Positions 11,401 through 64,000 of a stretch of 64,000 nucleotides of DNA are shown piece by piece. The stretch spans positions 45,401,613 through 45,465,612 of the forward strand of contig NC_092637.1 of NCBI RefSeq assembly GCF_039555335.1, in the 5' to 3' direction. The notes beneath the pieces are model-generated. The model had not been told where the DNA came from. It did not search any database and saw nothing but the letters and a program-made list of their open reading frames with translations. Position numbers and translations under genes: made by a program. The first letter of the stretch is position 1. Every line of letters starts with the position of its first letter. Origin of the DNA: Amphiura filiformis (Eukaryota; Echinodermata; Ophiuroidea; Amphilepidida; Amphiuridae).

Positions 11401-14400
11401 TTAAACCCATATCTAATCCTCGGACCTAGCCGTATCTCTATCCCTATCCACGAGCCTAGCCCTATAAAACACCCTATTCCTAATGCGAACCTGACCCTAA
11501 TCAACAATTCTAACACTAATTAGCAAGCCTAAATCGGAACACTAACCCTAAATCAATCTTAATCTGATCTGATCGTGCTAGGACATGCTGCAGATACGAA
11601 TCTCCAGATATAATCCTAGGTTGAAGCAAAAACAGCGAAACAGTCATCATACAGGGTGTCCGAAAACCATTGATATTTAACTCGTCATGCTGTTTTCCAG
11701 AAATTTTCTTGTTAAAACATGTATTGCAAATGTCAATGTTTACATTCATGGCATTTTACCCGAGACTGGAGCACTTTTGTGCTTATATAGGTTAAAGACC
11801 ACTAATAGGCCTGGGCGCTACATTGAAATACCACGAGGAACTATTTGTTTTCATGGCATTCGAAAAGACTGCATTAAAATCGCTGAAATTGATCAAGTTA
11901 TATAGCCAACAAAGTACTTTTTAGAGTTTGATGCTTCAAAATGGTACATTTTCTCTCATTATATGACATTTTTGTTGTAATAGTACCAAAATTCATACAC
12001 GCACGGCTTCGGTTTTTAGTAAACATTCGCCCTATCATATTGTAACTATCAGCTTCGAGGGCGCACTGTCATTTTAAGGTGTTTACGGTTCAGTGCGTTA
12101 AAACAAGAAAAGTCTCAGGTCAACCTATGTTGAATTTTTGATCATTTGGCATCTAAATCATATAGTTTCACCTGATATTAGTGGCATTGAACTGTGAGAG
12201 TTCTGAATATGAGAAAATTCCACCCGAAATTAGGCATTTTCCCATTGAAACCTGTGTAATACATAATTAGTGGTCTTTAACCTATAGGAGACGATCCTGT
12301 ATAAACAGTGATTGGAGTGCCCATCTCTCTTTCATTGTCGATTGGGCCAGACTCCTCCATGTAATGTTGCTATATGGGGATCGCTACACCTCCTCTACAG
12401 CGAGTCTGTTACCTTCCCAGCATTTAAGAATGCCGGTACCCATTTAAACACCTGGGTGGAGAGGAGCAATCGAGATAAAGTGCCTTACTCAAGTACACAA
12501 CACAATGGCGTCACCGGGGCTCGAACCCGCAACCTTCCGATTACGAGTCAGTGCCCGTTCTGCTAGGCCACCAAAGATAAATAAACAAGTATTGTTTAAG
12601 TTAAACTTTAAATTATTCTCATGTTATTACCACTACATATGAATCTGCAATTCTATACACTGTACAACCGTGAGATTATTGCAATTTTAAATTGTATATA
12701 GAACATAACCTTTCACACACTTATTACAATTAGACTTTAACAGGGTTTTGATCAATTTCCCACATCGAATACAAACCAATGACCACTGTTACATCTACAA
12801 TCAAGTGCAAATTTGCTGGGACACTTACACAGTTCAATGACCCTCCAGCTCCCCTTTAATATTCAATGTTGTATACCAAACACCTTCATTTTGAAATGTG
12901 CTACAACATTGGTTGGTGGGACTGGGAGGGGATTCGAAATGTACATTGTAATCTACACCAGGGGTCTGCAAATAGCGGCGCGCGCGCCACATGTGGCGCG
13001 CCGTGGCTTCCCGAGTGGCGCGCGCCTAGCCGTTTAGATTAAAAATATATTTTAAAAAATCAAACACTTTGATCAAACTTTGCAGGAATATCTCCAATAT
13101 TCTATATTTCAACATTAAACAATGCGATTCCCATGTTATATCCTTGTAAAGACAGGCTAAAATAGTACAAAATGTTGCACCAAATGGCGTCATTTGCACC
13201 TCAAATTGCAAAAAATCGATAGCTTCAAAGGGGGACACCTCCCTCTGACTCCCCCCCGGCGACTTTGAAGCCAAGTTGAGTGGCGCTTTGCAGTTTTCTT
13301 TTATTTTATGTGGCGCTTCAACAAATCTATTTGAGGAAGCCTGATCTACACAAATAGAATATCATATGATGAACTTCACATGGACAGTTATATTTAACTT
13401 CCACGGGTGCGAAATATGAATAAGTGTCACAGAGAATCTTGCACTTGATTGTAGGTTGCCAATAGCAGGTGTGGCTTGTACATGAAATCATCTAGAAACA
13501 TTTTCTACTGCCAATATAAAATCACTGAGTGCATTAAAACTATGAAACCCTAACTGGCGGTGTGATACCCACCTGCTATCCATTTGGAGTTGCTTTGTCT
13601 GTCTGCATCTTTGAAGCTTTTGAGTACGGTTGTCTTCAGGAAGTCATAAATCTACAGAATATTACAAAACAAAATAATGTTAGTATCAAGTACATGTATC
13701 TAATTTCCATTCTAACATTCACTACTAAATACCGATAGGTTGTAGATAGCACAAACTATAAAAAATTTTAATCCTTGTTATCAGACGAGTAATTTGATTA
13801 TCTTTGAACAAGATCTAAGCATTTTCAGTTTTTTTACCTGTGTGACCTTCTGTGACCTCTAGCCAAAAAATGCACCCTACAATTTGAGTCCACTATCCTC
13901 TAGCAGTGGTCCAGCGGGTCTATCCTAACACCTCATGGTATTAAACATCAGTAGACATGGGTGTTGAACTTGATCCTTAATTAAGGCCCATATGAGATTT
14001 AGCTCATATGCAAGCATTTAAGAAGCTGTATATACATACAGCTGCCTCAAGGCATTGACATCTACTAGCCAAGAGTAAAAATACTAGTTCATCCACACAT
14101 TAAAAGATATATATATTCATCAGCACAAGGACGTATTACGCACTATGTTGCTCTTGTGCCTTGAGTGCAGGGATGCCGAATTTTGTTGATTTTTTTTCTC
14201 CCCAACCACATACTATCTGCTAAAACCAACCAAAATGGCTCAACACAATGCCTAAGAGTTGGCAATTCCAACTATGAAATAAAAATCGAATAAATTGTCA
14301 CTCCAATACCCCAAAATTAGTTGATGTTAAATCTTTAATAAATCGTGTGAAAATTTTATGGGTCGATCCTTTATGTAATTATTAGGGAAAGCTAAACAGA

Positions 14401-17400: not shown

Positions 17401-20400
17401 CTCTGCTCCGGTCATAGTGTTGTTGCCATACACAACCGTTTCCTTGGTAGCAAGGCCTGCTAGTATGTTGGGTAAGAGTTCATAAGCTCTGTATCAAAAA
17501 GAATAGTTTGAGTTAATTGATATTTTGGCATTTTACATGCAATGGGCTATTCCATTTAAAATCTGTCATCCCCCTGTAGAAGATTTAAGAAAAGTCTTCC
17601 AAGGGAGTATGTTTTTCAAATAGAATTGGTAGAGTTAATTATTTTGAAACCATACACACCCTGAACCTGCTTACGTATCTTCTACAACTGGAGTGTATAT
17701 TTCAAATGAAAGTTACCCAATTGTCTAGCTGTTTGAAACCCATGCTTATGCTGGTTTCATACTACCCTGCCGCTTGCCGCATGGCGCACGCGTATTGCAG
17801 ACAAACGGACACAATCAAGGCTTGTCATTGGTTGAAGCGCCCTGCCGCTTGCAGCGGCAAGCGGCAGGAAAGTATGCTGGAGGCTTTACGCTGTGACTTA
17901 TAATCTTCCAAAGGGGAAGGTGACTTTCAAATGGAGTAGGCCAATTTGATGTACAGTGACAAACACAGCAACAATTTTGATGCAGCGCAGATGAAAAACC
18001 TGCAGTGGGGACAGCCAATACTGTGTTTGTCACAATGGGAAAATATCATACTCAACAACAGCCAAGATACTGGTTATCAAAATGTGTGTATGTATATGAG
18101 GATGCATATTTTTGTGTGTCAATGGTTTATGTCCCCAACTAGACAGTCTAAATCAGACAGGGGTGGGGGGGGGGGGGGTGTCCGTGTTCAATTACTTACT
18201 TCCCATTGGTAGGTTCTTTGTTCTTCACAGTATCAATAAATAGGTTAGCCAGTTCTGCAAGGCCACTAGCAGAGAGATTATTTGTCTGTAAATATAATAG
18301 AACAGAATACATGATTGAACAAATTCATCAGGATCGGTAGAGTAAACTCAGTCAACATGGTTTGTTGTATCTGATCCAGTAAAATGCACTCACTTGTGTA
18401 TGTTTCAGCAAATGCTGTGAGTGATGAGGAGTGATTGCTGCTACTGAGGGATTTCCAGCGACAGTTTTTGCAACAGGGATCAAGAAAATCCAAAGGAGTA
18501 AAACCAACTGGCAACTCCAAAACTTGCGCTAGTATTGGTTGTCAGTATACGTAGCTGCAGTCACTCCTCATCAAGTGTTGACAAAGGCAACAGTGTTTGC
18601 TGAAACATACACAAGTGCGTGCAATTTCTTGATCAGATGCAACGAACCTTGTTTACTAACAGAATACAAAAAATTAAAATATAAATGTCTTGTTTCATTG
18701 ATGTTTTTAATTGGCCTCATTTTAAGCACCACACCATTGGCACTGCACAGGTAAATTCACATTCCTCAGCCCAACAGCTACCACCAGAACCATTTTGTGT
18801 TTGATTTGATTTATCCATTCATAATAACATCATACCTCAAACATTAGAAATCCAACCATCTCTGTAGCGACTTTGTTTAATATTTCTGTACTTTGCAGCA
18901 ACTTGATGGTGTGTATGAATACCTGTAGTCTGCGTTGAAGACTGGTTGCATCAGAGACTGGCGAACCCTGGAAGATGCCCTGGATTAAGACGGTCAAATC
19001 GCTGGCATTTCTGGAGGCTTGTTTGCGCAAAATGTCTGGTACCTGTTGAAGAACAACATAAATCCAGTCAACAGTGACCCAGTCAACAGTGATCCAGTCA
19101 ACAGTGACTTAGTCAACAGTGACCCAGTCAACAGTGACCCAGTCAACAGTGACCCAGTCAACAGTGACCCAGTCAACAGTGACCCAGTCAACAGTGACCC
19201 AGTCAACAGTGACCCAGTCAACAGTGAACCAGTCAACAGTGATCCAGTCAACAGTGACCCAGTCAACAGTGACCCAGTCATCAGTGACCCAGTCAACAGT
19301 GACCCAGTCAACAGTGACCCAGTCAACAGTGACCCAGTCAACAGTGACCCAGTGCAAGTTCCCAAAGTGGCCATTTCTGAAGAACAACATAAATCCAGTC
19401 AACAGTGACCCAGTCAACAGTGATCCAGTCAACAGTGACTTAGTCAACAGTGACCCAGTCAACAGTGACCCAGTCAACAGTGACCCAGTCAACAGTGACC
19501 CAGTCAACAGTGACCCAGTCAACAGTGACCCAGTCAACAGTGAACCAGACAGTGATCCAGTCAACAGTGACCCAGTCAACAGTGACCCAGTCATCAGTGA
19601 CCCAGTCAACAGTGACCCAGTCAACAGTGACCCAGTCAACAGTGACCCAGTCAACAGTGACCCAGTGCAAGTTCCCAAAGTGGCCATTTCTTTTCTTGGA
19701 CCAGAGTCACCCAGAGAAGATATCAAACCAGTGTTCGAAATAAGCACTTATCCTCTTGTCCTCTTGTCCAAAAATCACTAGGGACAACCATATTGAGCTA
19801 TGTACTTATCCCCTGGACAACCACTATTTGGATTCTTTGCACTCAAAAACATGACATATATTTTTGGGACAACCAAATAGTTTTGAGGACAAGCAGAATT
19901 CATGCTTTAGTTGTTCTCGGGACAACCTCCATATTTTCCTTATTTCGGACACTGTATCAAACACTTCCCACAATTCATTTCTACCCTGTACTTATTTGCT
20001 ATTTATTGCAACATGGGTCAAACTCAATAGTGATCATTATATACCTCATATATAGATTCCTCTCATCTGATTGGTTAAAAGTGGAGTCATTAAAATAGCT
20101 GTGCCCCCTTTTTCTATCAAGATGACGTCATACAACAACTGTGCCCCGGGCACAGTTGATTCTATGCCCGGAAAATAATTGGATATTCGCAACCCGAATA
20201 CACAGATCGCTCAGTATACATTGCGCACCCACTATCGGCCGGCGTTGATTACGAGTGTTGAGACTATCGCGGTCACAGTTCGCAATGAATTTGACCTCTC
20301 CTTGCTTGAATGACGATCTTTCACCGCCGCCGTAGTGAGTGCAGTGATTGTTTACAAAATGTTACATGTCAAGGATTTATACCTGCCAAATGTCACTTTT

Positions 20401-29111: not shown

Positions 29112-29784
29112 AACCGTTTATGGGATCTAAAATGAGCGTTTATTGCGTTTCGACAGTATTTTTTGTGGGGCATGAGAGCACCTCAGACCTATCGAATTGC
29201 ATTCTGAATACGAAGTATGTCTTTCTGATATCAAATAATTTTCATTTTTGAAAATCACAATATAATACAAATTTTATGACAAATTATAAAAATTTGATAT
29301 TTTTCAAATTTTGATATATAACAGTCCTCGAAGTAAATTATATAAATCTAATGACATATTCTTAAAGTGTATGTAGCAGGGAGGAAAAGCCGACGGTCAA
29401 TTGAAAATTTTGACCTTTCATATTGAAGATATGGATTTTTTTCCCAAAAAGACCTATTTTTTTGGTGTTTTGGGAAAAATCCATATCTTCAATACGAAAG
29501 GTCAAATGTTCAATTGATCGTCGGCTTTTTCATCCCACCTACAAACACTTTAAGTATAAATCATCAGATTTATAAAGTTTACTTCAAGTACCGGTACTGT
29601 TATATATCAAAAATATCAATTTTTAATGATTTGCCATAAAATGTGTATTGAATTGCGAATTTCAAAAATCAAAATTATTTGATATCAGAATGACATTCTT
29701 CGTATTCAGAATGCAATTCGATATGTCTGATGTGCTCTAATGTCCCACAATAAATACTGTCCAAACGTTCATACCCCAGCCCTT
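29112..29784. repeat. Long foldback (palindromic) element
   Basis: The two halves mirror each other around about 29455: AATTGCATTCTGAATACGAAG near 29200 returns inverted near 29700, and ATCCATATCTTCAATA/TATTGAAGATATGGAT face each other at the centre. Arms are about 330 bp. One arm alone recurs at 50850-51030. Confidence 0.85.
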
Positions 29785-36011: not shown

Positions 36012-36099
36012 TAAACACTGAGTAAACAGTCACAATACACTACAATACAGTCATGCTGTTTAACATGAACACCCGCAAATCCTATGTCTGATCTGATCA

Positions 36100-37344
36100 A
36101 TGCTGAGATTGGGTCACTCATACCATTCCACAGGAGAATCTGACTTGAGCAACGGGTCTGACCTTCCTAAACTAGATGCCCTCTGCAACTCATTTGTCAA
36201 AAAATGGCTGCAGATCCCTAGACCGGGTACCTTGGCTGGTCTTTACTCTTCTGGTTCGCTCGAAATTCGCAGCATTTCCCAGCTGTATAAAGAAGGTCAT
36301 GCTTCTAAGTTTGTGCATCTTAAAAGAAGCTTCGACTCAAGAGTTCAGGATGCGTTGGTATCAAAGCTGGCTAGAGAAGAATCATTTTCTCGTAAATTTT
36401 CCATAATTCATTATAGTCAGAACTTGTACAATGAAGCTGTTAAAGCTCTGGAAAATAATCCGACCCGTAGCAATCCAGTGCCCACAAAAAAAGGTATTGT
36501 TGGTAAGATCAAAGAGTTTGTCACTGATGAAATCCGTAACCTGTGGAATTCTAAAGTTAAAGAATTGCTGGTTCAAGGCCGGTTTCTCCAGCTTATTCAC
36601 TTAGAACAGAATTGTTTTACTTGGAAGCATATAATGTATGCGCTTCCACGTGGTGTCTTACAATTTGCGCTCAACGCAGCCACAGATTCCCTCCCTACAT
36701 TGACCAACTTGGGGAGGTGGCGCCTAAGATCAGCTAATAATGTCAAATGCCCTTTGTGTCAAAACAGCCAAACTCTCCATCATGTGTTGAACTTTTGCAA
36801 AACAAAACTTGATCAAGGAAGGTACACATGGCGCCATGATTCGGTTTTGAACTATTTGGTGTCTCTTTTTAAGAACTCTGACAATACTAATGACTATCAT
36901 GTTTATGCTGATCTCGGAGGTAGGAAAAAAGGAGAAACAGTCACAACAGTTCCACCTGATGTTCTTCCTACCTCCCAGCGCCCTGATCTTGTCATTCATT
37001 GGCCTCATCTCAGCAAGATTTGTATTATTGAGTTAACCATACCCTTCGAAACAAACATTGTTAATGCCCATCAGAGGAAACTCGACAAATATGCGAGTCT
37101 TGTTAATGATCTTACTGAAAAGGGGCTCAAAGTCAATATTCATGCTTTTGAAATTGGTAGTAGAGGTTACCTATCTCCTGAAAACACATCTACTCTTAAG
37201 TCCCTTATACATCTCTCTGGTACAACTCAAACTTTTAAGAACGTTCGGAATAATCTTATGAAAATCGTCCTGTGCACATCTTTTAGTTTATATTGTTCCA
37301 AATCCGAACCATCATGGATTGATCCGCCACTGTTTAAACTATAA
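36100..37344 (+). CDS. Non-LTR retrotransposon C-terminus (CCHC plus restriction-like endonuclease), 5' truncated
   Basis: The 414-codon ORF matches the part after the reverse transcriptase in R2/NeSL/CRE-type retrotransposons. Near the N-terminus KKWLQIPRPGTLAGLYSSG resembles the post-RT linker. A CCHC knuckle follows (C217, C220, H228, C233), then a restriction-like endonuclease with RPD at 294-296, E311-L-T and a KLDKY lysine segment. These elements nick DNA with this nuclease and prime reverse transcription at the nick. The RT itself is absent, and a stop (TGA at 36094) lies just upstream, so this is a 5'-truncated copy, as is usual for such elements. The ORF has no internal stop, which suggests a fairly recent insertion. 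Confidence 0.85.
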   Translation: MLRLGHSYHSTGESDLSNGSDLPKLDALCNSFVKKWLQIPRPGTLAGLYSSGSLEIRSISQLYKEGHASKFVHLKRSFDSRVQDALVSKLAREESFSRKFSIIHYSQNLYNEAVKALENNPTRSNPVPTKKGIVGKIKEFVTDEIRNLWNSKVKELLVQGRFLQLIHLEQNCFTWKHIMYALPRGVLQFALNAATDSLPTLTNLGRWRLRSANNVKCPLCQNSQTLHHVLNFCKTKLDQGRYTWRHDSVLNYLVSLFKNSDNTNDYHVYADLGGRKKGETVTTVPPDVLPTSQRPDLVIHWPHLSKICIIELTIPFETNIVNAHQRKLDKYASLVNDLTEKGLKVNIHAFEIGSRGYLSPENTSTLKSLIHLSGTTQTFKNVRNNLMKIVLCTSFSLYCSKSEPSWIDPPLFKL

Positions 37345-39630: not shown

Positions 39631-41112
39631 CAGGGTGTATCAAAATGATTGATACCCTGTACCCAGGTGGTATGCGCCGTGCATTCTCTAAATTCAGTAA
39701 ATTTCCATCGTCAACGTGTAATTGTATGGGATTATTTTGAAATTTTAAAACGCTTGCAATATCATAAACAAATAGGCCTATGCTAATAAATAACATAAAT
39801 ACAAGCTAAAACCGTTGGGGTTCGATAATGAACCCCACAAAACTAACCGAGTATAGGCCCTATATGGAAAATGCCATACGGCCGAGCGGTTTTGCCAGCT
39901 CTCTCCGACCATCATGCCACTCGCCGCCTGCCTGTACCCAGTAGCTTTATCGTCGAATGAAAGGTCTCATCATGCAGTTATTGTTATTTTATATGTATGC
40001 ACGCAACACAGGGGCACTCACATAGGTAATTGACCCGTATATATATAGCGCTGTGCTGTGGGTATAGGATATGAACTAGTTAGCGTCATATATCAAAAAG
40101 TATAAAAGCTCTGATTTTAGTACTTGCTCTATGTTTCAATTACTTATTCTTTTCAAAATATCTGAATTGTTAATCCGGTACAAGCTTTAATAACGGGGGA
40201 GCATGCATTTGTATGAGAACGGAAATCTACCATCTTATCCAAACTCCCGTGTTAATCCAATGCACATTTTGCTTCACCGGGCCGCCCTGACTTGGTCAAA
40301 TACAAATTTAGTACTTTCTGTCAATCAAGTAGGCCTATGGTTTAGTGTCTACATGTCAATCTTTAAATTATTAGAGTCCTTATAATAACGGTGGAGCGCC
40401 TTAATGAGTAAATGATAGCAAACCAGTGAAAAATCCCCAAAACTCAGTCAGTGGAGCTCCACCCGTACATGTCAATAGCGTCATTATCGATTGGATTAGT
40501 CGACCGTAGCGGACAATTTGATCGCTCATTGGATTAATATTATCACGTGGTAGGAAATGTGCATTGGACAATCGATTACTATAATGGTTTAGTACTGCAT
40601 ATTTCGGTTTAATCTTCACTAAGCGGGGTTATGGCTGAAAAGGTCACGGTAAATTTGCCGTGGACAAAACTGCACTATGTGCTTCTTCCAATTTCAACAT
40701 TAGACCTTCTTGAAACGACTACAATTTATAGTTTTATGACCCAGCAAACACAAAATGCTCTAAAACGTTTTCCAAATTGTTTTTAAAATAACATTTAAAT
40801 GTCGGGTTATAAAGATCATGAATGCATTTTTCAAACGTTATTGTAAAGATTTTGTGCGAACATTTGCAAAATATTTTGTCAACATTTAAATAACATTCTG
40901 TTAGAATGTTCATCACGTTTTCATGTTTTATGCATGTTATTAAAACGTTTTTATACCCGTCATAACCCGACTTTTCTGTAAAACGTTTTGTGTTTACTGG
41001 AGACCTTTTATTACATAAATCTACAAATAAGGCAGATGTTATTCTGCATTTTGATTGGACAGTCTTCAATTCAATGGCTATTGATGGGTACCAATCATTT
41101 TGATACACCCTG
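39631..41112. mobile_element. Mariner-like element, 1.48 kb, no transposase
   Basis: Ends CAGGGTGTATCAAAATGATT and its inverse, with TA on both sides (39629-39630, 41113-41114). A CAGCAAACAC-type MITE (40741-41000) sits inside it. No transposase was recognised in any frame. Confidence 0.75.
40741..41000. mobile_element. MITE with CCAGCAAACACAAAA ends, copy 1
   Basis: Inverted ends CCAGCAAACACAAAATG and CGTTTTGTGTTTACTGG; internal AAAACGTTTT and GTCGGGTTAT words. Other copies: 56512-56878, and a degraded one at about 59330-59940. Confidence 0.75.
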
Positions 41113-46559: not shown

Positions 46560-46814
46560 ATGACTGAAAGTCAGCTTGTGAAAAAACTGAGTCGGGATCT
46601 TTTGGAGTGTGGAATCTGTTTGCATCGGTACAAGAAACCTAGAGGACTACCATGCCTCCATTGCTTCTGTCACTCCTGCTTAGAGAGTTACTGTAAGGGA
46701 CAGAAGAATGTGTTGTGTCCAAACTGCAAGAGACCAACTGCAGTACCAAAAGAAGGAGTGTCTGGATTCCCTGCTCATTTCATCATAAACACCTTGCAAG
46801 ATACATTGCAGGAA
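46560..46814 (+). CDS. TRIM-NHL copy 1, RING exon
   Basis: 85 codons starting MTESQLVKKLSRDLLECGIC. All eight zinc ligands of a C3HC4 RING are present: C17, C20, C32, H34, C37, C40, C53, C56. RING domains recruit E2 enzymes for ubiquitin transfer. The exon ends in phase 0 at a GTACGT donor (46815). It is intact, but the B-box exon it should join is deleted downstream, so the gene may only make a short RING protein or be a pseudogene. Its paralogue is at 52319. Confidence 0.85.
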
Positions 46815-46950
46815 GTACGTGAATTTCCAGTTTGATTTAAAAAAAATTAATATGAAATTAAGTAAATATGTCTTTTTCAAGTTAACTGACCGCAAAATGT
46901 TCTTGTTTTTGTTAACTTATATACTATTATAAAACAGCATGGTAAGTGCA

Positions 46951-47099
46951 GACCATTCCTGTAAATTTGCACATTCCCGTCATTGTTGGGGTGAACAATG
47001 ATATCACGTCTGTTTATCTCTCGATTTCGTTGTTTTATAACCACGTGCCATCGATGTTCACCCCATACGACAGGAAAGTGCCAATTATAGGAATGGTCT
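46951..47099. mobile_element. Palindromic MITE in intron 1 of TRIM-NHL copy 1
   Basis: GACCATTCCTGTAAATTTGC faces GCCAATTATAGGAATGGTC, and GGGGTGAACA faces TGTTCACCCC further in. About 149 bp, not seen in the copy 2 intron. Confidence 0.65.
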
Positions 47100-47528
47100 A
47101 TAGTAAGCTCTTTACAATGTTACTTAACGCCAAATATTCTGAAGGTAATCTATAAATTGTGTGTTGCTAATAATCATCGAGTCTGTCACATGACCAGTCC
47201 AGCGGGTCAGTTGCCTGATGAAGTGTGATGGTATCACACGCAACGTAACTTTGCTAAAAAATAGTAAGTCCAGTATTCCAAACTTCAATCATCGAGTTTT
47301 GAGCCTAATGATATTTCATGAGTAAGAGTTCTGTTATTTTAATTTAATATCAAATCACTTTCTAAAACTGTAACGTGTTCCAAGATAGAAAATTAAGTCT
47401 CGGTCCCAATAAAATTAAAGATAGATCTCTTTCCAAAATTTGCTGAGTCAAAAAAACACCTAAAAAACCTAAAAAAAAAAGAATTCACCGACCTCGACCA
47501 GCACCCCAGTCAAATGGTGCGTCCCTAA

Positions 47529-47736
47529 AGTTCCGTTCATACTGCACCGCAATTACTTTGCGATGTGGTGCATTGCCGATATATCGATTACTTTTTGCCG
47601 TAATTCACCGCAACTCGTCTAATTAAAAATTTATTTGACCTTATTGCGATACCGCAATGCAGTATATTTTGCAGTTCGATGCATTGCGGCAACGCACCGT
47701 ACCGCAAGGCAATTGCGGCGTAGTGTGAACGGACCT
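47529..47736. mobile_element. TAA-flanked MITE in intron 1 of TRIM-NHL copy 1
   Basis: Ends AGTTCCGTTCATACTGCACC and the inverse of AGGTCCGTTCACACTACGCC, with TAA on both sides (47526-47528, 47737-47739). The inside is made of TTGCGGT/ACCGCAA words. Confidence 0.8.
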
Positions 47737-47796
47737 TAACACGGGGCCTGTGGATTGAGCATGTTTTTGGAAAAGCACTTTACTCATAATTTATCT

Positions 47797-48960
47797 TGCT
47801 GCCTCTAAAGACGTCAAGAAGAATATGGACATGTTCAGAAATAATTACTACAGACAGGTTGTTGCCATCTTTAAAAACACGAGGTTGTTGCCAGGTCAGT
47901 GGAGGTCCAAAATACCAAGGAGCTAAATAAGATTAAAGACAATCTTCAGACAACGTTGGCTAGCCTTGAAAGTGCCTGTAATCTTGCTACTAAAATCACA
48001 CAAATGGGATCAGAACATGACATCACTACAATCTTCCCTACCTTGTCAGCAAGTCTTGAGGAGCTGAATGAGATGACCAAGCCTGTGGCTGCACCAGAGT
48101 CGCTGGGATATGTTGGGTACAGAGCATCTGACACAGTTGATATTCCTGATTTGTTTAGTGTGTTGTCAGTCAATCCAGGAGATAAATGGGTGCAGAGTGG
48201 ACAGTTTACCCATTTTGAATTGAAGAATCCTTGGGGAATAGCAGTCAAGAAAGATGGTGATATTGTTGTGACAAATGGATCCAGGAAAACTTGTAATGTA
48301 TTCTCAAAGGATGGCAAAGTTAAGTACATATTCCAAGGGCCTTTTCATGCATTCTTGTATGATATTGCCATCACTGCAGACAACAGGTACATCTTTCCTG
48401 GCCAAGGTAATATTCTATTCCATGACAGCCAAGGAAAGAGGTTGGATTATCCCAAGGCATCTACTTATGATACGAACCAGCAACCATCCACTCCTGTGGC
48501 ATTGGCTGTAGATTCAAGAGGCAAAATTATAGCTGGGTTAGAAAACAATACAATCTCCATCCATCATGCAGATGGCCAACTCTTGTTTAAGTTGGCTACT
48601 TTTGGTAGGCCATATTGGCTAGCTGTCACATCCAGGGGAGATATTGCTGTTAACATTAGGGATTCCAGTGCTACACTAGCATTACAATTGATGGACTATG
48701 TTGGTAACAATATCAGAGTGTTGCGGCCTCCTCAAGGAGTCACTTCGTGGCAACCTCACTCAATCTGCTGTAATAAACAAGGCGAGATATTTGTTAGGAA
48801 TGATAAAGCTGTATATCGTTACACAGCAGATGGCCAGTGTACGGGATGCGTCATCAGAGGACTTGATAATCCAAGAGGCATTGCAATCTCGGAGGATGGA
48901 CAGCAACTGTATGTAGTAGAATACAGTCAATGTGCAGTTAAAATATTCCAAAGACAATAA
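47797..48960 (+). pseudogene. TRIM-NHL copy 1, coiled-coil/NHL remnant lacking B-boxes
   Basis: Homology to copy 2 resumes abruptly at about 47797 inside the coiled coil (AASKDVKKNMD). The intron end, splice acceptor and both B-boxes are gone. One base is missing in an A-run at 47873-47877 compared with copy 2, shifting the frame. From about 47875 the frame is open for some 360 codons to the stop at 48960, with a good NHL propeller (NPWGIAVKKDGDIVVTNG, ALAVDSRGKIIAGL, GIAISEDGQQLYVVEYSQ). The C-terminus looks complete, unlike copy 2. Expression of the NHL part alone cannot be excluded. Confidence 0.8.
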
Positions 48961-51050
48961 CTTGCTTTTCCTGTAAATCTCATGGATTGGCCATCCGAGC
49001 AGATTGTAGCACATAAGTTTTTGGAGTTTAACTTGGAGTTATGCTTTATGGTTAAGATAAGGATAAGGGTTAGAGTTACACTTTGAATAAAGATTAAGAG
49101 ATTAGGCATGTTAGGGTTAGAACACTATTCTTGAAGTCGATCCCAATGCTGTTATACTTATAGTCTTTACATTTATAGAATGCCAGTGAATTAACCTATA
49201 CTAACAACTGCAACAATCTCGATGTGCAATAATTTTTACGCATTATTCTAATCTTCTTATCTGTCCTAGGTGCTTACTTTTACGAAACAGAAAAAAATCG
49301 CATTTGTTAATCGCTCATTTTCTATAAGCACTGTATGAAACAATTATTGGTAATGTGATGTAACCTGATGTAATGCAATCCAACATGTGACACGCGTCAA
49401 GTTTGAAAAAGGCTTAGCGAACGTAAGCCGAAATCTCACGTAAGTGAACATTTTTGTTGTGAGAATAGTGAGAAATGCATCAATATGTAATGCAACCTGT
49501 TTATATAGAAAGTAATGTAACATAATGTAGCACTGGCTTCTGTGCTGTACTCTGATACCTGTATGATGATTTTCCAACTGCTTCGCTACGCTCGGTGCTC
49601 GCTCCGCTCGCTATTCGAGAGGCGTCGCGGTTTGTGGAACGGGGCTAGTTCTAACATAATGTAAAGTTTGGCCTATGTATTGTACTGTGATGTAACGTAA
49701 ATGTAATGAAATGACAGGCAATCTTATAAAATGTAATGTATTATACTAATTATGTATAATATAGTAGGTGATGCAATGTAATGTTAATTATGTCATGCAA
49801 ATGGAACGTATAATGCAATTGTCGTGAACACTCTCAATATAATGCAATGTAATGTAATGCTATGTAATGCTATGTTATCATGGTTATGTTATCTAATGAT
49901 CTAAAAATCTGGCCCGGGGTGATTTTTTCACAATTTGGGTTTGTTGCGAATTTGTGATGTTATGAATGTTAAAAATACTGTCTGATTGTTTCAGACCGGA
50001 ATATAACTGGCATCTTGTATTTTTTGAGACATTTTTCAAGGTAATTCCTATTCTCAACATTGTCAATAATATTTTTAAAGGCCGATATCTCAATTTCCAA
50101 TTTTATAATACCATAACTTACTAACTCAATATCTTGGCTTAGGAATGTCCGATTTCATTGGGGAAAATGGTGTTGTGGAGCAAAATATCTCTACATTTAA
50201 GATATGTAAGAACCTTAAAATTGATAACCTGCCCAAAAGTGTCTCCTTTTGACATGACAAGTCACAAATGCACTACGATCAAATAGGTTGATGACAACAT
50301 TTGATTGAATGAACTGCACTGCGTCATGATTACGGTGATCAATCAATAATTTCACGCACAACCTCTACAGGAATAAAATAGTCTAATAAAAATTAATGTG
50401 ATGTAAAACTGTGTTTAATGTAAATATAGTAGGCGATACAATGTAATGTAAATTATGCGATGCAAGTTGAACGTAATCGTATAATGTAATGTAATGTAAT
50501 GTAATGTAATGTAATGTAATGTAATGTGATGTAATGTAATGTAATGTAATGTAATAAAATGAGAAGATGATAGAGGACGGGTATTGAACTGAAGACCTAT
50601 ATATAATAACATCACTGCTCTTCTCCATCTGACTCATTAGCTCAGTTGGTAGAGCATCGGTCCAGTGATCCGAAGGTCCCAGGTTCAAATCCTGGATGGT
50701 CAGTGACATTTTTTCACTGGCTGTCATTTATGTATGTGAAGGCTTGTGTTAAAAACCTTTCTTATAAAATGTAGTGTAATTTGATGCAATGTCATGGTAC
50801 GTAACGTATGATTAATTTGTAATGTAACGTACATGTACTGTAACATATAACAATATCAAAAATTAAAAAAATATCAAATTTTAATAATTTGTCATAAAAT
50901 TTGTATTATATCGCGAATTTCAAAAAATCAAAATTATTTGATATTAGAAGGACATTCCTCGTATTCAGAATGCAATTCGATAGGTCTGGTGTACTCTCAG
51001 TCCCCACAAAAATACGTGAAAACGTCGCTAAACGTTAATATCCCATTCCT
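48961..51050. other. Spacer between the TRIM-NHL copies: (ATGTA)n-rich DNA, no gene
   Basis: TAATG/ATGTA words dominate 49650-50830, with a pure (TAATG)n microsatellite at about 50475-50565. One arm of the 29112-29784 foldback lies at 50850-51030. A tRNA-like sequence lies at 50631-50702. Confidence 0.6.
50631..50702 (+). tRNA. tRNA-like sequence (AGT anticodon position), probably a pseudogene or SINE head
   Basis: Box A TTAGCTCAGTTGGTAGAGC and box B GGTTCAAATCC are canonical. The D, anticodon and T stems form (T stem CCAGG/CCTGG). The anticodon position reads AGT (Thr). Position 33 is C instead of T, the inner anticodon pair is T-T, and the acceptor stem pairs poorly, which argue against function. 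Confidence 0.5.
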
Positions 51051-52318: not shown

Positions 52319-52579
52319 ATGGCTGAAAGTAGGCTTGTTAAAAATCTCAGTCGGGATCATTTAGAATGCGGGATCTGTTTGCATCAATATAAGAAACCTA
52401 GAAGACTGCCATGCCTCCATTGCTTTTGCCACAACTGCTTAGAGAGGTACTGTAAAGGGCAGACGCAAGTTGTGTGTCCCAACATTTACTGCAAGAAACC
52501 AACAGCAATACCAAAAGAAGGAGTGTCTGGATTCCCTCCTCATTTCATCATCAATACCTTACAAGAAACACTGGATAAG
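52319..52579 (+). CDS. TRIM-NHL copy 2, exon 1 (RING)
   Basis: 87 codons, MAESRLVKNLSRDHLECGIC ... LQETLDK. Compared with copy 1 it has a six-base insertion giving CPNIYC instead of CPNC at the last zinc pair. Donor GTAAACG at 52580. Confidence 0.88.
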
Positions 52580-55500
52580 GTAAACGTTCATCTTCAAAAC
52601 ACTATAGGCTTTTTGTTTTAATCCAGCTGATTATAAAAAAACTTTTCTGACCGCCAAATGTTGAGAAAAGTGGCCTTTAAAATTTATGTTGCTAATAAAT
52701 CTTCGAGTTTCAATTTTCGATCTTCGAGCTGATAGCCTGATGATAATTGTAGGCCTAGGAGTAAGAGTTCGTAGATTTCAATTTGAAGTAAAATCACATT
52801 CTGAGCGGTATGTGCAGTGTTCCAAGATAGAAAATTAAATCACTGATTCCAATAAAAATAGATCTCTTTTCAAAACTTCTATCAGGCCATCCGTCAGAAT
52901 TTATAGATTGTTTTCTTCAAGAAAGGGCTGATTTTCAACGTTTCTACCAGAAAAAAGTGGATGTTATGTGATTTTGTTTGTCTTGCACCCCCGCACCCAC
53001 TATGGCTACGGCTTTGGTGTCCGCTTTGGTGTCTATAGCCTGCAAACAAATAAATATAGTAAACATATACCGTAAAACCCCGTCTACAAGGATATACCTA
53101 AGAAACGCCCTCAATAAAATTGGTTGCTTTTTGTATTTGGAGTTTGAGCAAATATATACTGGCACTGGGTGGCTATGCATTCCATCTAAGTATGTTGTAA
53201 CACCAATCAATTGTATTGACATAATAACGACTGTTTCGTATATCAGGATCGTATAGCTCAATTGATAGAGCGTCAGACTTTGGAACTGAAGATCTAGAGA
53301 GCATGGTCCGGGCACCGGTTCCGTTTTTTCATTCTCGTTTAATTTTAACTTTTTTGACATGTTCTTTTTATCTTTCTTCAAATCTACCTTTCTACTTTTA
53401 ATTTTAGGTGTTTTTGGGTGTTTTTTTTTTTTTTTTTTTTTAGTTTTTTTTTATAGTTTTTTTTAGTAATTTTGTGGTTTTATTCTAATAATAGCGAAAC
53501 CCACGGTTAGACAGATGTGTTGTAACTACTTGTCTGTCCTCGTCTTTGCAATAAAACCTATGTTGCAACTTTGTGCCATCCCAATTCTTGAGGAATGGTA
53601 GGTAGGGTGCGTTTTGGCTTAAGCACGATTTTGTTTCTACTGCTGTGTATAAGTGTGTCATCAAAAAGACCGGCCACCACCGTGGCCGCGTCTCTTTTTA
53701 GACTAGCTTTCTTGCGGCCAGAACGGTCGACAATGGCAACTGCGTTCTCATCGTGGGGGTTGTCCCTATCCCTGCGAAGGTACTGTCTGTTCAATTAGCT
53801 TAGATTCTTGTATTTTTAAGATATTTGAAAAAATAACAAATTTTGGTCTAAGTCATCAAAGAAAAGTGTTAGCACAGCCTTAGACCCAATGTGATTTTAA
53901 CTTTTCAAATTCCAACGTTCAATTTAAAACCCCATTTCTTTTCAATTTTGCCTCATTTTAGGCAGTTACTTGGGTCCACCAAAAGGGTTCGCGACCTTTT
54001 CACAAATCGAGTGGGATGGTCCATTCTCAACTTAGGGCATAGACCCTATCCAATTCAGCAAAACAATCTGTCCTGCCATTTCAATTGTTATGTCGTTCCG
54101 GTTATTGGATAGGGTCTATAGGTGACGATTGTCCACATGTTTTTGTTGCACGAAATTATATGCGCGAATACGTTTTATGCATAACATTATGTTGAGCATT
54201 ATCTTTTTCCTAAACAATGACATTAAAATTATGGATTTCGTTCTTATTTCAACTGGTTTACAATGTAAATTGAGTTTTGTTTAACACCATCATTTCTTTC
54301 CAATAATAAATATAAATACGCAAGGAATGTATTTATATAAGCTTGGCCTATTCTGGAAAACCTTAGTTCATATTCACATTTTTATAATAACGTAATGATT
54401 CAACGGTTTCAACATAAAAAAGTTAGGCCTACTGGCAAATATATCTATTTAGCTGGACAATACTTACTGATGCGGATGGTCGAATACTATATCTCAGCGC
54501 ATCTAATTATTATGACATTCGTTATGACGTTCTACGGCTTTTTATAAAAATATCGCGGGAAAAGACCAAAATTGAAAAGAAATGGGGTTTCAAATTGAAC
54601 TTTGGAATTTGAAAAGTATAAATCACGTTGGGTCTAAGGCTGAGCTAACACTTTTCTTTGATGACTTTGACCACAGTGTTTTAGTTTTTCAAATATCTTA
54701 AAAATACAAGAATCTAAGCTAATTGAACAGACAGTAGTAACCTTCCCTACGACTAGCCCGCTGTTGCCATAATGACGCATTCCGACCGCAAGAAGCCCGC
54801 ACAAGAACACTTTCATCGTGCTGGAAAATAAATCTAATCTAAGCATTTTAATGTTGTATACAAGAACCTGTTCCAACTTACTGCAGGGGTGTTCAATTTA
54901 GTTAATACTCTTGGTCCTTTTTACGAACTTAATATATGCATCTTCTACCCCTCGCCAGAATGAAAGCCTTGTGATGAAATCAAAATAAATATTGTTCTGT
55001 TGCCACAATTGCAGTTTTTTCAATAAAAAAAAAATAGATGAGGAATAATAATTATTCCATATTTGAATCTATTGTCCCATCAAGAATAGAGTGTCTTCAA
55101 AAACTTCAATCAATTTATCTGACAAAGGAAACTATTCTGGTCATTCAATTTTGTTTCGCTTGCACCTGTTATATCACAGGCGTTGGTAGAGAAGGCACAC
55201 TTCTCTTGTCTTCACCGAAGTAGTGATGTAAACACTAACATGATTAATTACCATAGCAATGGACATACACTATTTTTTGTTCCACTTGAACCCATACTCA
55301 TAGGCTATTCGCTGTCGATGTGACGTAGTTAATCGGATTAACTACCATAGCAATATATGAATACAATTTTGGCTATATCGCCCGCACTACAACGTTCATG
55401 CGGTGCCGATGCATTGAATCATAGATGTCAAAGAAATGCTAATCACCTGCAACTGTAAGATTAGTCTCTTTGAAAAGAGCGGTATTGTATTCAATCTATC

Positions 55501-58500
55501 ATATAATTGAAGACAGGCGATGAGTTCATCCTGCAGCGCGGTACATTAAAAAATTGTATTTATCTATTGCTATGGTAGTTAATCCGATTATGACGTCACT
55601 TCTACGGCGTATAGTGTGTGGATACTCTTCTACGGATTTGGCTACTAAGCATGTCAGGAAGGATATATATGGCCGTATGCTGACCTGTGTCAATATGTTT
55701 TGGCCAGATGAAGTCCGACCGATTGCCTACGTCACTGTGTGCGATCATGTGTGACAGGCAATTCCCGATATCATTAAAATTCCCTGTAAACAATCATCCT
55801 TCTAATGTCTACGTACGTAGGCCTCCAGCCCATAGTACAAAGCAAACAATAATTACATGGTGACAGACTCCTATAGTAATGTTTGCCATTGAGCGCACTA
55901 GGTTTCATCCAACCTGTAAATGTGAAATGACGCAGCCTTGGCGGTGACTGCACTCCATCGCCTGTTTTACACTAGACAAACGAATGTCAGCTTACAACAC
56001 AAGACAATATAAAGTAGATTTTAAAGCGGGTTTTATGTACTTAATTCGCTGTATAAGATTAAACAAGAAAAAAAAGACAAAGAAAACAAAGAAAAGAAAC
56101 AATAAAAGAAAAACAATAGAATAAATTAAACTAAATATGAAAAAAAAATGATCACGAAAGGAGTCTTTAGAAAATGCAAGAAAATATAAATGAAAAGTTT
56201 GAACAATATTTTGTTTATAAAAGTTTGTGTGACCGTGATGAGGCTCGAACTCACCATCTTCCGATCTAAAGAACCAAAGTCTTATGCCTTGCCAAGTGAG
56301 CTATGCTCGTGAGATGCGAAATAAAGATAAAATAATACATTGTATACCTGCTTGTGTCGGTAAATGATTTGCTCAAATTCCATAATGATATAATATTGTG
56401 GAGGGTGCTAGCGTGAAATTTTCTATCATCACAGTCGCTACTATTCCTTGTAGACGGGTTTCTACGGTATATTAAATGAAGGCAGTAGATTGAGCACGTT
56501 TGGGAAACGTCTCAGCAAACACAAAAACGTTTTAAAGACGGTTTAAACAAGTTTTAATTTGGGTCTTGGTTTAAATAAAAACGTTTCAATAACATTAAAT
56601 GTCGGGTTATATATATGTCATGAAAACGTTTTGAAACGTTTTGTATGAAAACACACTGCAAGAATAATTTTGAAATGTTTTAAAAATATTATTGTAAACT
56701 ATTTTTTGCCAAATATTTTGTTGTCAATGTTAAAATATTTGCAATAGGTTATTAAAAAATATTTTTTAATGTTATGAAAACGTTTTATACCCTTTATATA
56801 ACCCGACATTTAAACTTTTTCTAACCACCTTTTATTACCTTTTGCGAATGATGTCGAAAACGTTTTGTGTTTGCTGGGATACCACACTCTTAATTTTCCT
56901 TCTACATTTTTGTCATCATGTTCAGTGGATCACTTGATTTGTCCTTCTTGAATGTATTTATGAAAAAATAAATAAATATTCGGTAACTGGTAGTTGTTAT
57001 GTGTTTGCACCCATGTTGTTGCAGGCAAAACAAACCATGAAGGATGCCGTGTGTGGAAACTGCAACCTGAAAAAGAAAGCCACAGCCTATTGCCTGGATT
57101 GCGAAGAATTCTTCTGCCAAACCTGCCACACTGCACACGATACCCTCAAAACCCATAAAGACCACCAGGTTGTAAGCATTGAAGATGTTCGCTCCGGAAA
57201 AGTAGTGCTACCAGTGACTGCATCTGAAGACCAGAAGTGTAAGGACCATGACAGTGAGACAAAGAAGTTCTACTGTGAGACATGTGGGAAGCTTATCTGT
57301 GGAAAATGCATCGTGCTTGGTCATCCCCAACATCAGGTCATCACCTTGAAAAAAGCATCGGAGGAAAAGGTTGAGAAGTTAAAAGAGCTCTCCAAAGGAA
57401 GTGAAGATCTAGAGATAGAGTACAGAGATGCCATCAAGAAAACAGAGGATGTTCAGAAGAGTCTCGCTACTGCCTCCAAAGAGGTCAAGAAGAACCTGCA
57501 AAGGGTCAAGAATGAGTACTACAAGCAGGTTGATGCCATCTTCAAGAAACATGAGGTTGATGTCAGGTTAGTGGATGTCCAGAATGCCAAGGAGCTAAAT
57601 CATATCAAAGACAATCTTCAGACAACATTGGCTAAACTTGAATGTGCCCGTGATCTTGCTACTAAAGTCACACAAATGGGATCAGACCATGACATTACTT
57701 CAATCTTCCCTACCTTGTCAGCAAGTCTTAAGGAGCTGAATGAGATGACCAAGCCTGTGGCTGCATCAGACTCGCTGGGATATGTCGGGTTCATAGCACC
57801 TGATACAGTTGATATTCCTGATATGTGTAGCGTGCTGTCGTTCAAAGACAAGTGGGTATTGATTAGGCGGTTTAGTACCAAGGCTGGACTGAGTGGCCCG
57901 TGGGGAATTGCAGTCAACCACGATGATGATATGAGTGGCCCGTGGGGAATTACAGTCAACCACGATGATGATATTGCTGTGACAAATGGATACAATAAAA
58001 CTTGCAAAGTATTCTCAAAGGATGGTAACATCAAGTACATATTTCAAGGTCCTCTTACAACGAGCCTGGTGGATATCGCTATAACATCAGACAGCTGGTT
58101 CGTCCTTCCTGGCAAAGGTCAGATTCAGTTCTATGACAGCCAAGGTAAGACGTTGACTGACTATCCCAATACACCTACTTATGATATGCTCAACCAACCA
58201 TCCACTCCTCGTGCACTCACTGTAGATTCGAGCGGCAGGATTATAGCTGGATTAAGAGGCAACACAATCTCCATCCATCATGAAGATGGTCGACTCATAT
58301 CTAAGTTTGCTACATCTGGTATGCCAAACTGGCTTGCTGTCACCTACAAGGAAGATATTGCTGTTGTCATTGACAACACTCTACAATTAATGGATTACTG
58401 TGGTAATAATGTCAGAGTACTGCAGCCTCCTCTACAAGTCACTGAGTGGATGCCATACGGTGTCTGCTGTAGTAAGCAAGGTGAGATATTTGTTGTGAAT

Positions 58501-58620
58501 CTGGGCAGCCCTAAAGCTGTATATCGATACACAGCAGATGGTGAGCAGTGTCTGGGATGTGTCATCACAGGACTTCATTACCCAATGGGTATTGCTATCT
58601 CAGATGAGCGGGCAGAATGA
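52319..58620 (+). CDS. TRIM-NHL protein, copy 2 (RING, two B-boxes, coiled coil, NHL), two exons
   Basis: Exons 52319-52579 and 57025-58620 join in phase 0 (donor GTAAACG, acceptor TTGTTGCAG) to give 618 residues. Order: RING (C17 to C58), B-box 1 (C97, C100, C110, C113, C118, C121), B-box 2 (C159, H162, C171, C174, C179, C182, H187, H190), coiled coil (about 195-300) and an NHL propeller from about 370. This is the layout of TRIM2/3/56-like E3 ubiquitin ligases; NHL propellers choose RNA or protein targets. Odd points: the last RING pair is C-x4-C rather than C-x2-C; a 42-bp in-frame duplication adds 14 residues; and the C-terminus stops about 20 residues before that of copy 1. It is probably a functional member of an expanded family, but this is not certain. 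Confidence 0.88.
53246..53325 (+). tRNA. Degenerate tRNA-like sequence (TTG anticodon position), left arm
   Basis: Box A GTATAGCTCAATTGATAGAGC is good. The anticodon loop CTTTGGA reads TTG (Gln). The T arm is broken and followed by TTTTTT. Probably a tRNA-derived module, not a working gene. Confidence 0.4.
53558..53794 (-). pseudogene. HIRAN-like domain fragment
   Basis: Minus-strand frame with LRRDRDNPHDENAVAIVDRS then SLKRDAATVVAGLFDD. The DNPHDENAVAIVD core is the hallmark of HIRAN domains, which bind 3' DNA ends in HLTF/Rad5 helicases and occur alone in many invertebrate proteins. Only 78 codons are open, and no start context or partner domain is seen. A diverged inverted counterpart lies near 54740-54830, so it is probably transposon cargo or a gene remnant copied with it. 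Confidence 0.5.
56231..56311 (-). tRNA. Degenerate tRNA-like sequence (TTG anticodon position), right arm
   Basis: Minus strand: box A CATAGCTCACTTGGCAAGGC, anticodon loop CTTTGGT reading TTG, box B GAGTTCGAGCC. The D stem is imperfect. It shares AGACTTTGG with the left-arm copy at 53246. Confidence 0.45.
56512..56878. mobile_element. MITE with CAGCAAACACAAAAACG ends, copy 2
   Basis: Inverted ends CAGCAAACACAAAAACGTTT and AAAACGTTTTGTGTTTGCTG. It is inserted in intron 1 of TRIM-NHL copy 2, just after GGGAAACGTCT, which corresponds to the copy 1 intron near 47770. Confidence 0.8.
57025..58620 (+). CDS. TRIM-NHL copy 2, exon 2 (B-boxes, coiled coil, NHL)
   Basis: Begins AKQTMKDAVCGNC after the acceptor CAG at 57022-57024. 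It encodes both B-boxes, a Lys/Glu-rich coiled coil and the NHL propeller (GPWGIAV, ALTVDSSGRIIAGL, GVCCSKQGEIFVV, YPMGIAIS). It ends DERAE at TGA 58618. Confidence 0.9.
   Translation, partial: AKQTMKDAVCGNCNLKKKATAYCLDCEEFFCQTCHTAHDTLKTHKDHQVVSIEDVRSGKVVLPVTASEDQKCKDHDSETKKFYCETCGKLICGKCIVLGHPQHQVITLKKASEEKVEKLKELSKGSEDLEIEYRDAIKKTEDVQKSLATASKEVKKNLQRVKNEYYKQVDAIFKKHEVDVRLVDVQNAKELNHIKDNLQTTLAKLECARDLATKVTQMGSDHDITSIFPTLSASLKELNEMTKPVAASDSLGYVGFIAPDTVDIPDMCSVLSFKDKWVLIRRFSTKAGLSGPWGIAVNHDDDMSGPWGITVNHDDDIAVTNGYNKTCKVFSKDGNIKYIFQGPLTTSLVDIAITSDSWFVLPGKGQIQFYDSQGKTLTDYPNTPTYDMLNQPSTPRALTVDSSGRIIAGLRGNTISIHHEDGRLISKFATSGMPNWLAVTYKEDIAVVIDNTLQLMDYCGNNVRVLQPPLQVTEWMPYGVCCSKQGEIFVVNLGSPKAVYRYTADGEQCLGCVITGLHYPMGIAISDERAE
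57891..57974. repeat. 42-bp in-frame tandem duplication in the NHL domain
   Basis: GAGTGGCCCGTGGGGAATT... occurs twice back to back with one substitution, giving GPWGIAVNHDDD followed by GPWGITVNHDDD. Copy 1 has a single unit. Confidence 0.95.
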
Positions 58621-58659: not shown

Positions 58660-60060
58660 CCAAGAAATTAGGTTAGTTTAGGCTATTAAGTTAGTTGAGG
58701 CTATAATAAGAATTAGGGTTGGGTTTAAGGGTTAGGTTAGGATTAGGATGATGTTTGGGATTAGGGTTGCGGTTAGAATTAGCCTTATGATTATATATTA
58801 AAAGAAGCTGTTTTCTTTCCATCAGAACTAGAGTGAATGTATACATGGCAGTAGCGTATACAGTTCTTTTTTAAACGGGCGCGCGCTCCCCGGGTATCAA
58901 AAAAAGAAGAGAAATTAGAGAAAAAGAGAAGAGAAACGCATGTGTGCATGCGATATTGACGAAATTAATCTGTTTGACCATTTCAGCTTTTAAACAAGCA
59001 AATTTAAGCGCACTTCGCGGGAATTTGTTCCAATTTAAACCATATTTGACCATTTAAGCTTCAATATGTTATATTTACACGTTTCATGATCCTTTCATAG
59101 CTCACCAAGTAACCCCCCCCCGCCGCTTGCTGAAGTTCCGATACGCGCCTGCATGGTATAGGTTTCGACTTGTGTTTAGGACCATGATTATAAGATTATC
59201 ATGATTATGGTTATTAGAATTGTGGTTGATAGTTGCATACATTATACCTAAGTTGCTCTCAATATAATGTTTTTAAGTTGATAATTTAAATTAACTTAGC
59301 GTAAGCGACACGGGTTCAAACAACTGCAAACAACCCGGTAAACACAACAATGTTTTAACCCAGTTAAACAACAATGTTTTAACGTGGTTTGGTCAAAACG
59401 AATTTAATAACATTTATAAAATGTCAGGTTATATAATGGTCATGAAAACGTTTGCAAATATTTTTGGCAAACATTTGTGCAAAACATTTTGTCAACAATT
59501 AATTAACATTATGTCAGAATATTTTGCAGCATGTTTTCCAAAATGGGTTTGAATATTTGAAGAGCTTATTTCCGAACCGTGTTAAAATCCACAAACCCAT
59601 GTATCTGATTTCCCTGTGCATTATTGCAATGCTATAGGTATTACAATTTCAGTTGGATGCCCAATTACAAAGCAAATGCACAGTAAAATACTGTGTGAGG
59701 CTTTTGTTTTTCCAAATGAGAACAATAGTCTGCATATTGTTATGCACCTTTGTTATGGTAAATAATAGTACAACTCATTGTTGCTAATGTCAAACTTGTC
59801 AAAGTAATTGTGATTGTATCACACAAGTAAATGAGACACATGGGGTTGTGGACTTAACACGGTTTGGAAATAAGCTCTTCATTTTTAAAACCCGACATTA
59901 AAACATTTTCTGTAAAACATTTTGTGTTTTGGTGATAACATCTTCACAGGCCATATTTTTACCTACTTCAAAGGAATATTCATCCTTCCTTTGACCATAA
60001 AAAGGAAATTATGTACTAATTTTGTAATCATTAAAACTGAAATTGCTTTGAAGAACAATC
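58660..60060. other. Spacer after TRIM-NHL copy 2: telomere-like and MITE remnants, no gene
   Basis: Degenerate TTAGGG-like words at about 58670-58760, a GC-rich ACGGGCGCGCGCTCCCCGGG patch near 58876, and a degraded CAGCAAACAC-family copy at about 59330-59940. Confidence 0.5.
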
Positions 60061-63407: not shown

Positions 63408-64000
63408 GAACATGATGCAATGTTTGACACATTTGTATTTGATATAAAATGAGAAGACAAACACAAACTTGAGGCTTTCTGTAGTGATAATGCTGCGAAA
63501 AACCATTTATAAAATCTATCAAGTTATAGACGAATCCAAGGAGCCAAGTCATGGTCAGGATTTGGTCGGACATCTTTGGGTAGCCGCTAGCACCAACCTG
63601 GTGTTTTGAGCGTCCAATTGTGCAAATAAAAGCCGCCTAACATAGAGAGAAGATGCAAGGACGAGGAGGGTTAATAGAATAATAGCTAATAATATATATA
63701 ATGGAGATAATTCCGCAGGTAATCCCGTCGCATCTATTCATACTGACATAGTCCTTTTGTTCGCAAGTATACATCAATGCATAGATACCGCGTGTAGTTA
63801 ATCCGATTATTATGTCACTTCAACAGCGAATAGACCATGCTGTGTGTTTTGTCGAAGGGCACTGTATTGTGTTATTCTTTTGTCTACCTGTGTTTTCGCG
63901 GAAGGTGTAAAACGGGTGATGGAATGCAGTTTAATATTTCCGCCAAGGCCGAATCATTTCACATTTTGAGTGCATTGTAGCCGACGGCTACCCAACTAAA
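63408..64000. other. Terminal stretch, no gene seen
   Basis: Includes TAGTTAATCCGATTATTATG at about 63797, a piece also found at 55320-55610. No supported ORF. Confidence 0.4.

Follow-up and report, generated by a model that had tools for sequence, protein, structure and literature searches.

Gene-fragment capture by DNA transposons is familiar from the Pack-TYPE elements, a trait that the element described here appears to share, and the short interspersed nuclear element (SINE) found within MER6 transposons is tRNA-derived. MER6 and MER6A themselves are Tc1/mariner miniature inverted-repeat transposable elements (MITEs) with an Ac1-like V-SINE inside (PMC6887750), and Tetris and Galileo are foldback elements whose long modular inverted arms surround a middle domain (PMC4079207). 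In a 64,000-nucleotide stretch of Amphiura filiformis contig NC_092637.1, referred to below as the window, positions 53065-56472 hold an inverted-repeat element that shares features with both, carrying a tRNA-like module in each arm together with remnants of a HIRAN-type coding sequence. We interpret this element, with a probability of about 0.58, as a single decayed copy of an old, non-autonomous, foldback-like DNA transposon with terminal inverted repeats (TIRs) and a short target, 2-bp TA or AT, lying in a probable intron of a TRIM/NHL gene. Today it most likely serves no function itself. The mixture of tRNA-like modules in the arms with HIRAN is unusual and is represented by one worn copy.

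The comparison with MER6 extends to the general plan, since both are non-autonomous TIR elements with short ends (24 bp in MER6, with a TA duplication) and MER6 likewise carries a SINE (PMC6887750). MER6 differs in having one internal SINE fragment and no tRNA module in each arm, as well as in reaching hundreds of copies per genome, and HIRAN goes unmentioned in the excerpt of the article on which this comparison draws (PMC6887750). For the tRNA part of the layout, MER6 thus offers a precedent in the literature. Tetris has long modular inverted arms, which the patchily alike arms of the present element resemble, and was described with no transposase found; it is set apart by target duplications of 8-10 bp and by tandem repeats inside the arms, neither of which is seen here, and the excerpted text mentions no tRNA parts for either Tetris or Galileo (PMC4079207). 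Among the literature matches listed, judged by title and the start of the abstract, there was no transposon that bears HIRAN or a tRNA in each arm, and the end-sequence strings appeared only in articles titled on other subjects.

The features of the element are listed below by position in the window; identities per aligned column come from a gapped aligner and are hence flattering.

53065-53092, + strand: left TIR, 28 bp, beginning ATATACCGTA; 26 of 28 positions identical with 56445-56472.
53093-53246, + strand: left subterminal spacer, like the right spacer with many gaps (84 of 109 aligned columns identical, 75 gap columns).
53247-53327, + strand: left tRNA-like module with eroded T arm, running into T6, which resembles an RNA polymerase III (Pol III) terminator; Rfam RF00005, 27.6 bits at 53247-53309.
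53328-53465, + strand: left T-rich tract, from the arm alignment.
53558-53794, - strand: HIRAN-type open frame of 78 codons, a partial domain with a possible 3' splice site AG ahead of it (by eye); Pfam PF08797, E 5.5e-5; HLTF, E 0.0033.
53781-53950, + strand: left arm of the inner inverted repeat, 93% (158 of 170 identical, gapless).
53951-54566, no strand: central unique region, 616 nt, one read-through piece of which has no Pfam match at E<=1.
54567-54736, - strand: right arm of the inner inverted repeat, partner of 53781-53950.
About 54737-54830, + strand: decayed, gapped HIRAN counterpart (69 of 88 aligned columns identical, 141 gap columns; 0 of 1000 shuffles as good).
54831-56045, no strand: additional right-arm sequence with no recognised left counterpart, containing a separate repeat.
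56046-56223, - strand: right T-rich tract (A-rich on the + strand), from the arm alignment.
56224-56308, - strand: right tRNA-like module with box-B-like GAGTTCGAGCC, T4 downstream and extra bases past the anticodon position; 14.4 bits in a targeted scan; resembles the left module.
56306-56444, - strand: right subterminal spacer, from the alignment with the left spacer and the shuffle test.
56445-56472, - strand: right TIR, 28 bp, partner of 53065-53092.

The likeness of the two arms was evaluated piece by piece by shuffling the right piece 1000 times with its dinucleotides kept and counting the shuffles that reached the observed score. The matching 28-bp inverted ends, which an earlier note made from the letters of this stretch had pointed out, were confirmed, as no shuffle reached their score, and the same was true of the inner inverted repeat (0/1000). 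The tRNA-like modules were equally distinct (0/1000 shuffles and 0/1779 random pairs as good), and the subterminal spacers were alike to a lesser degree, with 2 of the 1000 shuffles and 15 of 1770 random window pairs aligning as well. For the whole 420-nt arms, a first random-pair test gave an observed score of 68.8 against a largest value of 33.0 among 393 pairs. The T-rich tract seemed strong in that first test, with about 0.1% of pairs as good, but the signal vanished once the tract's own composition was kept, 175 of 1000 shuffles then being as good; the stretch past it shows no arm likeness (161/1000 shuffles; 503/1770 random pairs). The arm homology that the earlier note expected beyond the ends and tRNA parts is thus present, moderately, in the spacer and missing from the T-rich tract and beyond. 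Set against the long modular inverted repeats of a foldback element, the likeness is patchy, comprising the ends, spacer, module, HIRAN remnant and inner repeat.

This unevenness invites a patchwork explanation, in which a TIR transposon had arms in common only in the ends, spacer and tRNA-like module, unrelated repeats were inserted later, and the 93% inner repeat with the HIRAN remnants represents a separate nested element or a local inverted duplication. The contrast between the 93% of the inner repeat and the heavily gapped remainder, at roughly 65-78% of aligned columns, speaks for it, as do the lack of likeness beyond a T-rich tract that itself does not exceed composition and the other repeats found on the right side, both within the arm and in the flank. 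The inverted order of end, spacer, tRNA, HIRAN and inner repeat is nevertheless identical in both arms, and nesting would account for this only if the inserted piece were palindromic. We regard the patchwork explanation as possible but rather unlikely. The ends and the inner repeat each differ by about 7% between arms, and the spacer and modules by far more, a pattern that, in this one copy, would fit divergence of the arms in a lineage that was active and conserved its ends. This comparison of ends with arms is weak, because the 7% of the ends corresponds to 2 differences in 28 positions, with a 95% interval of 1-24%.

The tRNA-like modules are located 182 nt from the left end and 164 nt from the right end, are inverted relative to each other, and both read inward while retaining a box-A-like TAGCTCA and AGACTTTGG, so that the opposite orientation and similar end distances stated in the earlier note stand. 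Both modules are followed by a run of T, six on the left and four on the right, in the manner of Pol III genes. The left module scored below the Rfam gathering value of 29, with an E-value of 0.014 over 6 kb and 0.15 over the whole window, and the right module was not among the Rfam matches at E<=1 in either the 6-kb or the whole-window scan. ARAGORN called neither module at default settings, at -ps95 or with introns allowed, and at -ps80 with introns it made 114 calls in the window, which is plainly noise. A box B scan allowing one substitution also picked up neither module, and their folding was no better than that of shuffles (z 0.01 and 0.67). Neither module, therefore, reaches the gathering score or forms the cloverleaf expected of a tRNA gene, and because the right module's own model score is weak, it is mainly the resemblance to the left copy that speaks for a tRNA origin of this module. 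The modules are best called tRNA-derived but broken, their source being a tRNA gene or the head of a tRNA-derived SINE. In ancestral copies they may have given Pol III transcripts; those of the present copy are broken.

Two further tRNA-like features were observed in the window. At 50629-50704 on the + strand there is a well-formed tRNA-like gene, called tRNA-Thr AGT by ARAGORN and scoring 52.5 bits with Rfam (50631-50702), with a T run after it; it may represent either a gene or the head of a SINE, and no inverted partner is listed near it. At 12527 on the - strand, a box-B-like GGTTCGAGCCC occurs within a tRNA-like context that, by eye, has the look of a SINE head.

As an alternative origin of the arms, two SINE-like or MITE-like units, each composed of the 28-bp end, spacer, tRNA head and T-rich stretch, could have been inserted head to head with ordinary intron between them. 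Each arm taken alone does have a tRNA head followed by a T-rich stretch, and the further tRNA-like piece at 50631-50702 would be in keeping with such units. A SINE would not, however, be expected to place a matching end upstream of its tRNA promoter, the HIRAN remnants and the inner repeat are mirrored too, and a two-arm profile found no solo arm in the window. These points make head-to-head insertion quite improbable.

The HIRAN match on the minus frame proposed in the earlier note was borne out as a partial, sub-threshold one: the frame scores 23.4 bits against PF08797, 1.3 below the curated cut-off of 24.7, over profile positions 27-74 of 96. It is consequently a partial relative, short of a curated score over the domain; its best solved relative is the HIRAN domain of HLTF in the PDB, and NCBIfam gave no match at E<=0.1. 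Its placement inside the inner inverted repeat proved incorrect. The inner repeat (53781-53950/54567-54736) instead abuts the HIRAN piece, starting at the beginning of the frame and extending away from it with an overlap of 14 nt. The left HIRAN copy is open and the right one broken. Relatives sought elsewhere were few: seven stretches in viral contigs fitted the peptide pattern and none was confirmed, among 123 candidates from prokaryote contigs one was confirmed (44%, on an Aquifex-labelled contig), and three phage records were found, in which one Stenotrophomonas phage appears twice, with identities of 46.5% over 43 residues and 35.3% over 51. These relatives show that HIRAN is widespread and say nothing of the fragment's source. 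The broader proposal of the earlier note, a foldback element that captured a tRNA and a DNA-end-binding domain, agrees with the layout, and tRNA capture in a broad sense is likely; a whole domain is an overstatement, given the limited profile coverage and the one open and one broken copy.

The open left frame and the HIRAN remnants in both arms could also be what is left of an autonomous transposon family that encoded a HIRAN protein and whose terminal repeats each contained a tRNA promoter. The restriction to positions 27-74 of the profile argues against such a remnant, as does the lack of a recognised transposase in the scanned pieces; nor is HIRAN tied to transposons of this kind in the titles and abstract starts of the literature matches listed. 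We consider this very improbable. We give even less credence to a more specific version, an undescribed animal transposon family with an inward Pol III (tRNA) promoter in each terminal repeat, whose autonomous members would code for a HIRAN protein binding to replication forks or 3' DNA ends and aiding transposition or donor-site repair, the present copy being a decayed member.

The transposase search covered the HIRAN frame, the open reading frame at 54634-54876 and five read-through pieces rather than all six frames; Pfam recognised nothing but HIRAN in these, and the five pieces had no match at E<=1. Because no transposase was recognised and any target duplication is hidden in the sequence around the ends, the element is not assignable to a superfamily. 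The ends may resemble those of pogo/Tigger-type Tc1/mariner elements, and the left module may resemble tRNA-Lys. Dada transposons insert into tRNA genes and were dropped as candidates, since the tRNA is the target in Dada and cargo inside the ends in the present element. ISL2EU of the PHIS superfamily, according to the excerpted source, makes a 2-bp AT target duplication that would suit the flanks of our element; it has an A before the AT target, where our element has C or T on the left side, depending on register, and it was set aside because no THAP/DDE transposase or YqaJ exonuclease, the genes of its autonomous members, was recognised in the scanned frames and pieces (PMC4482050). KolobokP, described in the excerpt available as an animal DNA transposon of composite-like build whose terminal units are long, was set aside because those units are direct, with a TTAA target and RR..YY ends (PMC9587614), whereas the repeats of the present element are inverted, its flanks are ATAT and its ends lack the RR..YY form.

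The surrounding DNA looks eukaryotic in appearance, and the G+C content of the whole window is 36.7%. Pfam identified a RING frame at 52319-52621 to the left of the element and a B-box/NHL frame at 57001-58620 to its right, and these are probably exons of one animal TRIM/NHL gene with the element within an intron. A tandem paralogue lies at 46560-48897. Within the paralogous intron, 47535-47730 weakly matches a miRNA model on either strand, at 40.7 and 34.6 bits against a gathering score of 140, and probably represents a MITE-like palindrome.

Several results weigh against our preferred reading of an old, non-autonomous foldback-like transposon. The right module, at E 1.4 in a scan limited to 141 bases and against a gathering score of 29, is a weak tRNA match. 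The combined score of ends, spacer and module was matched by 4 of 1765 random window pairs, which lie at other places (near 31.2/38.1, 44.7/45.2, 44.7/45.6 and 59.4/59.8 kb), show strong inverted likeness and are probably other inverted repeats. The symmetry of the arms is broken by the roughly 1.2 kb of additional sequence in the right arm. Both ends lie within ATAT, where a 2-bp TA or AT duplication is indistinguishable from end sequence, so there is no unambiguous target duplication. An empty site was sought through the paralogous intron with the flanks compared separately: on the left, the alignment stops at 52878, leaving the last 186 nt before the left end unaligned, and on the right there were just weak alignments at the wrong places, none of them credible. 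Further copies with the same ends, which the earlier note had called for, did not appear: within the window, a two-arm profile returned only the two known arms (E<=1) and the end pattern with up to three mismatches only the two known ends. Exact end patterns were found in neither viral nor prokaryote contigs, and neither the tRNA-core patterns nor an inner-repeat 21-mer occurred in the viral contigs, zeros that say little, since eukaryotic genomes are not what these collections comprise. One tRNA-core and one end pattern used on the viral contigs were checked on the window, where they match both arms and nothing else.

Under the preferred reading, a transposase made elsewhere would have bound the ends and moved the element by cut-and-paste. 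A tRNA gene or tRNA-derived SINE would have inserted near one end, and the module-bearing end would then have been copied onto the opposite end, by end replacement or template switching, yielding the foldback-like arms. A HIRAN exon of the genome may have been captured together with some intron sequence and likewise duplicated in inverted form, and the 170-bp inner stretch may later have been homogenised between the arms.

The window contains further repeats and open frames. The separate repeat in the additional right-arm sequence occurs at 55305-55370/55550-55614 and 55918-55972 and is matched in part at 63794-63839 and 63905-63966. Directly to the right of the tRNA/HIRAN element, at 56510-56880 and starting at about 56517 (bounds by eye), is an inverted-repeat element with AAAACGTTTT-rich arms, which has partial relatives at 59340-59464 and 40787-40845. 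A MIR7504 model match at 29392-29522 on the + strand (61.5 bits; gathering 83) is probably a hairpin repeat, an array at 18989-19781 can be read without stops in several frames of either strand, as short repeated peptide units, and a 415-codon open frame at 36097-37344 on the + strand has no match in Pfam (E<=0.01) or NCBIfam (E<=0.1).

Taken as an isolated, worn copy, the element would be a curiosity of intron decay. If other copies share its layout, it would represent a DNA transposon that spread a duplicated tRNA-derived promoter together with a piece of a fork-remodelling-type gene, and it would be an addition to the chimaeras of DNA transposons and SINEs such as MER6.

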